Source: Exiguobacterium profundum (lineage in GTDB: Bacteria > Bacillota > Bacilli > Exiguobacteriales > Exiguobacteriaceae). From it: a stretch of 64,000 nucleotides of DNA. The notes beneath the pieces were generated by a model that was given only the letters and a program-made list of their open reading frames with translations, was not told the origin of the DNA and made no database searches. Every line of letters begins with the position of its first letter. Positions within the stretch are counted from its first letter, which is position 1. The stretch lies in NCBI RefSeq assembly GCF_001909285.1, contig NZ_MRSV01000001.1, forward strand, positions 1,135,331 to 1,199,330, given 5' to 3'. Made by a program: the position numbers and the translations under genes. Below, piece by piece: positions 13,254-53,765 of the stretch.

Positions 13254-13721
13254 ATGAACATCTTGATTATTTTTGACTCACTATATGGTCATACTGAAAA
13301 GATTGCTCATGCGATGCAGCAAGAGCTGTCGAAAGACCATGAGGCACGTATGGAACACGTATTGAATATTGGATTAGGCGACTTGGCACATGTCGACCTG
13401 GTCATCATCGGCTCACCGACACATGGGGGATACGAAACGGAAGACATTAAAGTATTTTTGGACGGAATTTCGGACAATGCGTTACGAGGGAAACGGACGG
13501 CTGCCTTTGACACGAGTGTCGTCAAAGAGAAACAGAATCCGATACTTGGTAAAATCATTGATTGGTTCGGTCATGCCGTCAATCGGGTCGAAGGGGAAAT
13601 AAAAAAAAAAGGGGCGACGGGTGTCCAAAAAGAGTCGTTCCTCGTCGATGGGACGACGGAGATGTTGAAGGAAGGCGAACTCGAACGCGCGAAAGCGTGG
13701 GCGCGTGAGTTGGTCGGATAA
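13254..13721 (+). CDS. Flavodoxin-family protein
   Basis: 155 residues, the usual short-chain flavodoxin length. The FMN phosphate-binding loop is at the very N-terminus (IIFDSLYGHTEKIA), followed by VIIGSPTHGGYE and an AAFDTSV strand. The start at 13254 follows AAAGGGGGA; the in-frame ORF extension upstream overlaps the preceding gene and has no ribosome site. It may act as a low-potential electron carrier or, given the divergent SPTHGG loop, as an NAD(P)H:quinone reductase-like flavoprotein. An A10-G4 run at 13602-13615 lies inside the frame. A terminator follows. Confidence 0.85.
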   Translation: MNILIIFDSLYGHTEKIAHAMQQELSKDHEARMEHVLNIGLGDLAHVDLVIIGSPTHGGYETEDIKVFLDGISDNALRGKRTAAFDTSVVKEKQNPILGKIIDWFGHAVNRVEGEIKKKGATGVQKESFLVDGTTEMLKEGELERAKAWARELVG

Positions 13722-16339: not shown

Positions 16340-16374
16340 GTATGTCGATAAGGGTAAGAAAAAAAAAAAACGGG

Positions 16375-38900: not shown

Positions 38901-40025
38901 GTGAATCATATTACCGATCGGACAGCTTTAGAACATATCATAACAAATATGATTGAAACGGTGACGGAAAGTAAAGAGGAGATTGTCCGTATAACCGAAA
39001 GTTCTGCAACTGAATATTCAGCAATTCAAAACGAGTTAAAAGAATTGACGGATAAAATCGAGTTCTACATCGAGGAGTCCGATCGACTCGACCGACTCGT
39101 GAAAGCTGCAAAGGCCAAGCTCGTTCAAGTCAGTAAAAAGTTTCATATACATAGTGAACAAGAAATTCGCGAAGCCTACGAACGGGCGAATCAAATGCAA
39201 CTCGAACGTTTTCTTGTCCAAAAAGAAGAGATGGCGGCACAGCAACGCCGGAACGACTTAGAACGTCGTCTGCTCATCTTAGAGGACACGATCGAACGTG
39301 CCGAAAAGTTGATTGGTCGCGTGAGTGTCGTCTTGAACTTCTTAAGGGATGACTTACAGCAAGAGTATTCGGACATGATGAAAAAACAAGAAATGGCCAT
39401 CGGCGTATTCGAAGCTGCTGAGCGCGAACGGCGCCATCTCGCCCGCGAGATGCACGATGGACCAGCGCAATCGCTTGCTCATATTCTGATACGGGCCGAC
39501 CTGATTGAAAAGACGTTTGATAAACGAGGGAAAGATGAGGCGTTTGCCGAATTACATGAATTGAAAAAGCTAATTCGTGGGGCACTCGTCGACGTCCGTC
39601 GTTTGATTTATGATTTACGTCCGATGTCGCTTGATGATTTAGGCTTTTTGCCGACGCTCTAGCGCTATCTCCATCAAACGGAGGAGTATACGGCAATCAA
39701 GACACGTCTCAACTATCGAGGGTCGCGTGCGCGATTACCGGAGAAGCTGGAGATTAACGTGTTCCGTCTCGTTCAAGAATCGGTACAAAATGCGATCAAA
39801 CATGCAAAAACAGCCGAAATCATCGTCAATGTCGAGCAAGCGAGCGACGTGATTCACATCCACGTCCGCGACTATGGCATCGGGTTTGAACCGAGCGCAA
39901 TTGGCGAAGAGTCGTTTGGGATTGTCGGAATGCGCGAACGAATTGAATTGGTGAACGGAAGCATCACCATCGACTCGGAAGTCGGCAAAGGGACAGTCGT
40001 CCGGATGTCGATTCCGATTCCGTGA
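38901..40025 (+). pseudogene. degS: Sensor histidine kinase DegS, interrupted by an in-frame TAG
   Basis: Frame of 375 codons from GTG 38901 with TAG at 39660-39662. The part before it (253 residues) contains the coiled-coil sensor segment and the H-box REMHDGPAQSLAHIL with RRLIYDLRPMSLDDLGF. After the stop the same frame continues with RYLHQTEEYTAIKTRL, VFRLVQESVQNAIKHA, DYGIGF and [15 protein letters not shown], the complete HATPase domain. The product aligns with B. subtilis DegS across the break (about 385 residues), so a single base change explains it. A GTG at 39759 with GGAG 6 bases upstream could start a separate ATPase fragment. degU follows after 22 bases. Without readthrough or reassembly the kinase would be inactive. 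Confidence 0.85.
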
Positions 40026-40047: not shown

Positions 40048-40740
40048 ATGGAAATGACACAGACACGCATTGCGATCGTGGATGATCACGAACTGTTCCG
40101 CGAGGGATTGAAGCGGATTTTTGATTTGGAGTATGAATTTAAAGTTGTCGCCGAAGGGCGTACGGGACGCGAAGCAATCCGCATCGCTGGCGAGCAAAAA
40201 CCGGAAATTCTAATTATGGATATCAACATGCCGGACATGAACGGAATCGAGGCGACGAAGCAACTGTCACTTCTTTCACCAGAGACACGTGTCCTCATTC
40301 TGTCAATCCATGATGATGAGTCGTATATCACACATGCGCTTGAAGCGGGGGCATCAGGATTCTTATTAAAAGAAGTCGCATCGACAGAATTGATCTCGGC
40401 AGTCCGTGCCGTCGCAAAGGATGGGGCGTATCTTCATCCGAAAGTGACAACGAACGTACTGAAGGATTACCGCCGTCTCTTACAATTCAAAGGGGAACAG
40501 GCGGGACGTGGCGTCGAGAGCCGTACAGATGACCCGGTCTATCAATTATTGTCGCGCCGTGAGGTCGAGGTGTTGCACCTTCTCGCCGACGGTCGCTCGA
40601 ACCGAGACATCAGTGACATGCTGTTTATCAGTGAGAAGACGGTCAAAAACCACGTCTCCTCCGTACTTCGTAAAATGGACGTGAACGACCGGACGCAAGC
40701 CGTCGTGGATGCGATTCGCCGGGGTTGGGTCGAGATTTGA
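40048..40740 (+). CDS. degU: Response regulator DegU
   Basis: 230 residues. Receiver domain: acidic pair in IVDDHE, phospho-Asp in [13 protein letters not shown], Lys in LLKEV. LuxR/NarL-type [23 protein letters not shown], then [31 protein letters not shown] precedes ATG. It governs the switch between motility, competence and exoenzyme production in Bacillus. It is intact although its kinase gene carries a stop, so unphosphorylated functions, or phosphorylation by other donors, may remain. Confidence 0.95.
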
Positions 40741-52709: not shown

Positions 52710-53765
52710 GTGGAAACAGGTATTAATAGTTTTTTTATCAACATCAGTCTGATCTTTTTATTCATGTCGCTCACACTCTATGTGATGCGGACAGTTTTAC
52801 CGATTCAGCCGACTTCCCCGTTGTTCGTACGCTTTTGGTTTGGAGTCTCTAACGGATTGACGGCAATTCTCTTAACCATCAACTCCATCGAATTAGGGGA
52901 TGCACGAATCGACCTTCGTCTCATCCCGATTGCCTTATCCGCAACGTTCGCTGGACCGTTCGGAGCTATCGTCACGCTCGGTCTGATCTTCATCGGACGC
53001 ACGACGCTGCACGGAATGAGTGCTCCGTTCGTAGACTCGTTACTACTGTTATTTGTCTTCTTTTTATTTTTTTTTGTCATGACACGCTTACCGATTCGTC
53101 GAGGGAGAGGGTATGCCATCTACATCGGGTTAGGTGCGCTCCTCGTCTTGATTCAAGTGAGCGGCAGTGTGAATGAGACGGTCTTTATAAATGTATTTGT
53201 TCCTTATTTTCTCATGTTATCTTTTGGGGCCTGGCTCTGTTATTGGGCCGCAAAGAAGCTCGAGACGCATCTATGGATGTTTCTCCTACATACGCACCGG
53301 GCGACCATTGATGAGTTGACGGGACTTCCAAACCGTTATCGGACGCTCGAACAGATGAACGATTTGGAAATGTCCGGGAAACCGTGGACGTTACTCGTTA
53401 TCGACGTCGATCATTTTAAACAGTTGAACGATACATATGGGCACTTAGCAGGAGACGCAGCACTTCGTCATATCGGACAAACGTTGGAGCGGAGCTGTCC
53501 GCCGTCTGGATTTGTCGGACGATACGGTGGCGAAGAATTTTTGCTCGTCATTGAAGGTAGTGAAGGTATGGTGAAGGTGGCAGAAAACATCGTGCAAATG
53601 GTACAGCGAACACCATTCGAATTTCAGGGTGAAACTATTCCGATGACTATTTCAATCGGTGCAGCGATTGCAGGGCATGAACCGAGCATGGTCGTGTTCG
53701 AAAGAGCAGATGAAGCATTATATGAAGCAAAGCGAAATGGTCGGAATCAGGTCAAATTTGCGTAA
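52710..53765 (+). CDS. Membrane diguanylate cyclase (5TM-type sensor plus GGDEF)
   Basis: 351 residues from GTG 52710 after AAGGAGGGG. Six hydrophobic segments up to about residue 185, arranged like a 5TMR-LYT sensor, precede a GGDEF domain (about 190-350). The domain has DELTGLPNRYRTLEQ, IDVDHFKQLNDTYGH and the intact active site YGGEEF. It should make c-di-GMP. Placed after fliW-csrA, it may link surface or envelope cues to motility. Confidence 0.92.
   Translation: METGINSFFINISLIFLFMSLTLYVMRTVLPIQPTSPLFVRFWFGVSNGLTAILLTINSIELGDARIDLRLIPIALSATFAGPFGAIVTLGLIFIGRTTLHGMSAPFVDSLLLLFVFFLFFFVMTRLPIRRGRGYAIYIGLGALLVLIQVSGSVNETVFINVFVPYFLMLSFGAWLCYWAAKKLETHLWMFLLHTHRATIDELTGLPNRYRTLEQMNDLEMSGKPWTLLVIDVDHFKQLNDTYGHLAGDAALRHIGQTLERSCPPSGFVGRYGGEEFLLVIEGSEGMVKVAENIVQMVQRTPFEFQGETIPMTISIGAAIAGHEPSMVVFERADEALYEAKRNGRNQVKFA

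Follow-up and report, generated by a model that had tools for sequence, protein, structure and literature searches.

An in-frame TAG codon in degS of Exiguobacterium profundum, most likely a homopolymer-directed base error of the assembled consensus

In the assembled genome of Exiguobacterium profundum (GCF_001909285.1), codon 254 of an otherwise full-length degS is a TAG (39660-39662; open reading frame 38901-39662), after which the frame stays open until a TGA ending at 40025. Coordinates refer to the window, that is, the whole 64,000-nucleotide stretch analysed, which corresponds to bases 1135331-1199330 of contig C1 (NZ_MRSV01000001.1; 2,832,066 bases) in a genome of 2,917,168 bases distributed over 21 contigs. 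We consider it very probable that this TAG is a base error of the assembled consensus, and for this reason DegS is probably whole in the organism. The conclusion is drawn from a directional signature found in the 384 kb surrounding degS and absent from four relatives: bases lying 0-11 nt 3' of a T-run of at least 5 appear as T (or as A on the opposite strand). The degS site fits this signature. The features concerned are as follows.

38901 to 39659, plus strand: degS before the stop, with the DegS sensor domain and HisKA_3 (253 codons; open reading frame list, Pfam)
39645 to 39649, plus strand: TTTTT run, 10 nt 5' of the stop (sequence reading; gap 10)
39660 to 39662, plus strand: in-frame TAG, in all likelihood a base error of the consensus (sequence, relatives, homopolymer context)
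39663 to 40025, plus strand: degS frame behind the stop, with HATPase_c and the terminal TGA (Pfam, dN/dS)
39759 to 40025, plus strand: GTG-started open reading frame of 88 residues, proposed earlier as a separate ATPase polypeptide, whose start signal is not conserved (open reading frame list, relatives, Pfam)
40048 to 40740, plus strand: degU, an open frame with Response_reg and GerE (LuxR-type) domains (open reading frame list, Pfam)
40132, plus strand: T private to this degU, giving a Tyr codon 9 nt 3' of TTTTT 40118-40122 (this genome's own sequence)

The open reading frame list places the degS start codon, a GTG, at 38901, and the next gene, degU, at 40048. When the pieces on either side of the stop were scanned separately, PF05384 (DegS, residues 11-165, E 6.4e-42) and PF07730 (HisKA_3, residues 176-243, E 6.6e-16) were found upstream and PF02518 (HATPase_c, E 2.2e-14) downstream, so that the TAG falls between the HisKA_3 and HATPase_c domains. 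An earlier note had described an in-frame amber codon splitting degS between these domains, and the codon and the domains on both sides of it were found as described. The gene has the order expected of the DegS of a DegS-DegU system, from sensor through HisKA_3 to HATPase_c; it adjoins degU and is under selection like that of its relatives. It differs in the TAG alone, owing to which the given sequence, probably erroneously, lacks the single uninterrupted frame of a DegS.

In order to compare degS in related genomes, as the earlier note had recommended, the 88-residue ATPase piece was used as query. Matches were obtained in 60 of 61 genomes, its own included. Among 30 loci, one was from the genome itself; the other 29, from all 18 same-genus genomes and 11 of the 18 same-family genomes, were aligned to the window frame. 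Each of these has an intact frame with a sense codon at the TAG column, where one identical charged residue recurs throughout; in the 18 same-genus copies it is invariant. In a second collection of 78 DegS-like loci, some of them distant or partial, the column is mixed, with Arg, the residue that the earlier note gives for B. subtilis, in 13 and a stop in none. The stop is the one residue in which this degS stands apart from all 18 same-genus copies, and dN/dS lies between 0 and 0.038 upstream of the stop and between 0.017 and 0.044 downstream. Behind the stop, the frame aligns with all 29 relatives, as the earlier note's statement that it stays conserved would lead one to expect. Since dN/dS remains low there and no other residue is private, degS is not decaying, and a decaying pseudogene was rejected. 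Among the publications listed, no title or abstract opening reported a degS stop in Exiguobacterium.

Stops elsewhere in the assembly were then considered, by comparing 384 kb around degS (C1 975331-1359330) with 400 kb per genome in four relatives (G010, G008, G004 and G016). Of 369 open reading frames of G004 that served as reference, 223 had a counterpart in every one of the five genomes; requiring that at least three of the genomes be free of a mid-gene stop left 219. Mid-gene stops were found in 8 of these genes here, versus 2 in G010, 3 in G008, 0 in G004 and 3 in G016. Six of the 8 were judged, by reading, to be clean interruptions of conserved sequence; one of the remaining two lies near the gene start and the other is common to G010. 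The relatives' stops, sorted by eye, are either shared, located within the initial 36 residues, or confined to short or weakly conserved frames. After two genomes had been added, the columns in which all six other genomes agree were examined in 179 genes: this genome has 4 stops there, five of the relatives have none and G013, the most divergent, has 2.

A gene for glyceraldehyde-3-phosphate dehydrogenase (GAPDH; C1 near 1256192, outside the window) is likewise interrupted: a TAA stands beside an A-run missing in relatives. The open frame is reduced to 233 residues, versus 345-358 at the corresponding gene in all 11 same-genus genomes searched. A second GAPDH gene is intact (353 residues); loss of the first could therefore be survived, and its stop is by itself no proof of an error. 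Two further genes outside the window each carry one stop in a well conserved frame, in homopolymer context both times: at C1 near 1077398, a TAG in what by eye looks like an ABC transporter ATPase gene, and near 1313437, a TAA in what looks like a sodium/amino-acid symporter gene.

Over all conserved columns, the private residues of this genome number 206, versus 209 in the sister genome G010, and the radical ones 18, versus 12 in G010, 7 in G008, 25 in G004 and 12 in G016. As there is no overall excess of private residues, the defect is local, and sequencing noise spread evenly over the genome is unsupported.

The earlier note had raised the possibility of a two-piece kinase, the second piece starting at GTG 39759; DegS might also be made by readthrough or suppression of the TAG. 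The GTG and a GGAG six bases upstream (39749-39752) are indeed present, and the 88-residue frame that they would open still matches HATPase_c on its own. However, GGAG and GTG occur jointly in only 4 of 18 same-genus copies and the corresponding Val codon is not a start codon in 3 of 18, so an internal start was rejected. None of the 29 aligned relatives has a stop to be bypassed in either way. A suppressor tRNA or recoding likewise seems improbable, as no CUA tRNA was found in the incomplete tRNA set seen and TAA, rather than TAG, makes up four of the six clean stops. ARAGORN reported no CUA anticodon in 26 of the 27 loci matched by an Rfam tRNA search of the genome, nor subsequently in all 27 together with 17 loci matching a pattern and 16 further stretches. 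That CUA-arm pattern, which covers standard T arms only, gave 17 matches genome-wide versus 12 for a control. With only 27 Rfam matches, the tRNA set seen is incomplete, so the absence of a CUA tRNA is not final. Taken together, we regard both production in two pieces and readthrough or suppression as hardly credible.

The signature itself was characterized on the same 384 kb. At the sites read, mixed sequence is replaced by A or T runs of equal length and the alignment contains no gaps. This was seen in the GAPDH gene, whose TAA arises in this way, and in others. Conserved residues are altered, with poly-A in place of the original sequence, in three genes whose products were taken, on inspection, to be triosephosphate isomerase, enolase and a ribosome-hibernation factor. 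When homopolymers were counted (A and T runs only), 53 runs of at least 9 were found in 384 kb here, versus, per 400 kb, 0 in G010, 2 in G008, 0 in G004, 1 in G016, 4 in G001 and 1 in G013. The direction is constant: 3' of T-runs the base becomes T, and the equivalent event on the other strand shows on the coding strand as an A placed 5' of A-runs.

When a run of 5 was required within 16 nt in the sequence of the genome concerned, 21 of the 69 private transversions of a single base to A or T were in context here, versus 7 of 221 in the four relatives (Fisher p 1.8e-9); taking the run from a relative's sequence instead left 15 of 69 here, versus 7 of 221 (p 5e-6). An initial, cruder test, which asked for a run of 4 within 12 nt and ignored direction, found 18 of 206 versus 20 of 819 (p 1e-4) and, with one relative compared at a time, fell short of significance for G008 (p 0.07) and G016 (p 0.13). 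A simple transversion mutator, which had been the first impression, was dropped, because the changes depend on T or A runs and on direction.

When protein-changing private bases in the directional context were counted in 211 genes, the run being taken from a relative's sequence, the result was 63 here, versus 6 in G010, 4 in G008, 8 in G004 and 4 in G016. These 63 bases fall in 52 codons in 34 of the 211 genes, the relatives having 5, 4, 8 and 4 codons. In the mirror-image context there is no excess, with 4 bases here and 8, 4, 5 and 4 in the same relatives. By gap, the counts are 25, 17 and 22 in successive 4-nt bins over 0-11 nt, versus means of 2.0, 2.25 and 1.5 in the relatives, and beyond 11 nt they drop to the relatives' level. 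The excess is found with runs of 5 and 6; it is unclear with runs of 3 or 4, and the two cases with runs of at least 7 are too few to judge. Both genomic orientations are equally affected (30 and 33 bases). Some of the changes in this context are real, as the relatives show 4-8 such bases each; their rates put 4-8 of the 52 codons as real, so that about nine in ten are not.

Silent bases in the context number 22 here and 11-24 in the relatives, whereas the protein-changing ones number 63 versus 4-8, so the excess looks unselected. Together with the involvement of conserved enzymes and the equal orientations, this has the look of unselected errors. We infer that the signature is technical and that the degS site is an instance of it.

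The T of the TAG (39660) lies at gap 10 from TTTTT 39645-39649, both in this genome and with the sequence of G010. The codon is one of the 52 in context and one of the 4 stop codons seen by the directional count, all 4 of which have a base in context. The six clean stops are in context in 6 of 6 cases by own sequence and in 5 of 6 with the sequence of G010. The degS change consists of one isolated base, with no obvious smear. The earlier note had taken degU to be intact; its frame is open, but it carries the private substitution at 40132, and this Tyr codon fits the artefact class by own sequence only, as the TTTTT run is absent in G010.

The earlier note had also left the choice between a recent change, a sequencing error and a tolerated stop. 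A sequencing error is favoured by the membership of the base in a class in excess here, and tolerance by suppression found no support. As regards a recent change, a genuine nonsense mutation, perhaps arisen in laboratory passage, would have inactivated DegS very recently and left DegU without its kinase. The lack of decay behind the stop fits such an event, and a degS knockout of Paenibacillus is viable and non-motile, as cited in the part of PMC9195935 at hand. Nevertheless, the site belongs to a context with 63 changed bases here against 4-8 in relatives, and in invariant columns there are 4 stops here, where G013 has 2 and the five other relatives none. A real mutation is therefore unlikely.

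Still less probable is a mutational process of the strain itself, in which a strain-specific replication or repair defect would place T up to about 11 nt 3' of tracts of at least five T (tract-templated mutagenesis). Its sharp bounds (run of at least 5, gap of at most 11), with a reach beyond the read error described in the published text at hand, would suit such a process, as would the likeness of the two orientations. The damage to highly conserved enzymes and the unselected look of the excess speak against it. If it were true, tract-templated mutagenesis would recently have broken degS and a glycolytic gene. Neither biological reading of the earlier note, the loss of DegS or a two-piece kinase, receives positive support from the sequence comparisons.

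Returning to the consensus error, a similar type of read error has been described. According to the portion of PMC8002175 available, substitution toward the base of the preceding homopolymer is a common Illumina error, is explained by phasing and concerns the base directly after the run. The class described here shares with it the substitution toward the run base, its directionality and its restriction to one side of the run, as the counts in the directional and mirror-image contexts show. It differs in distance: the published mode, in that portion of the text, affects the adjacent base, whereas the degS site is 10 nt off and the excess reaches 11 nt and is present in a consensus. In another Illumina study, G or C stood before wrong calls more frequently than A or T did, at least in the section of PMC3334598 consulted. 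The excess sets in at a run length of 5 and extends to a gap of 11 nt, which is further than expected from simple read phasing.

In the mechanism that we favour, the reads or their assembly would put a wrong T at positions up to about 11 nt 3' of T-runs of at least 5 (a wrong A on the complementary strand), leaving the length unchanged in the sites read. A single miswritten base, 10 nt after TTTTT, would then convert a sense codon of degS to TAG, and the degS of the organism would most likely be intact, giving an ordinary full-length DegS acting on DegU. A regulator that seems broken or split would thus be explained by a measurable defect of the assembly. At degS and elsewhere, this genome could mislead work on pseudogenes, on lost regulators or on the evolution of proteins. 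The comparison with relatives of directional excess beside homopolymers is applicable to other draft genomes.

Within the window, further private protein-changing bases of the homopolymer-directed class were seen at 13599-13610, 32195, 47507, 53061-53075, 57567 and 60982; these sites include poly-A at 13601-13610 and poly-T at 53067-53075. In addition, positions 16359-16370 form a run of 12 A, a suspect tract given that six relatives have only 0-4 A or T runs of at least 9 in 400 kb.
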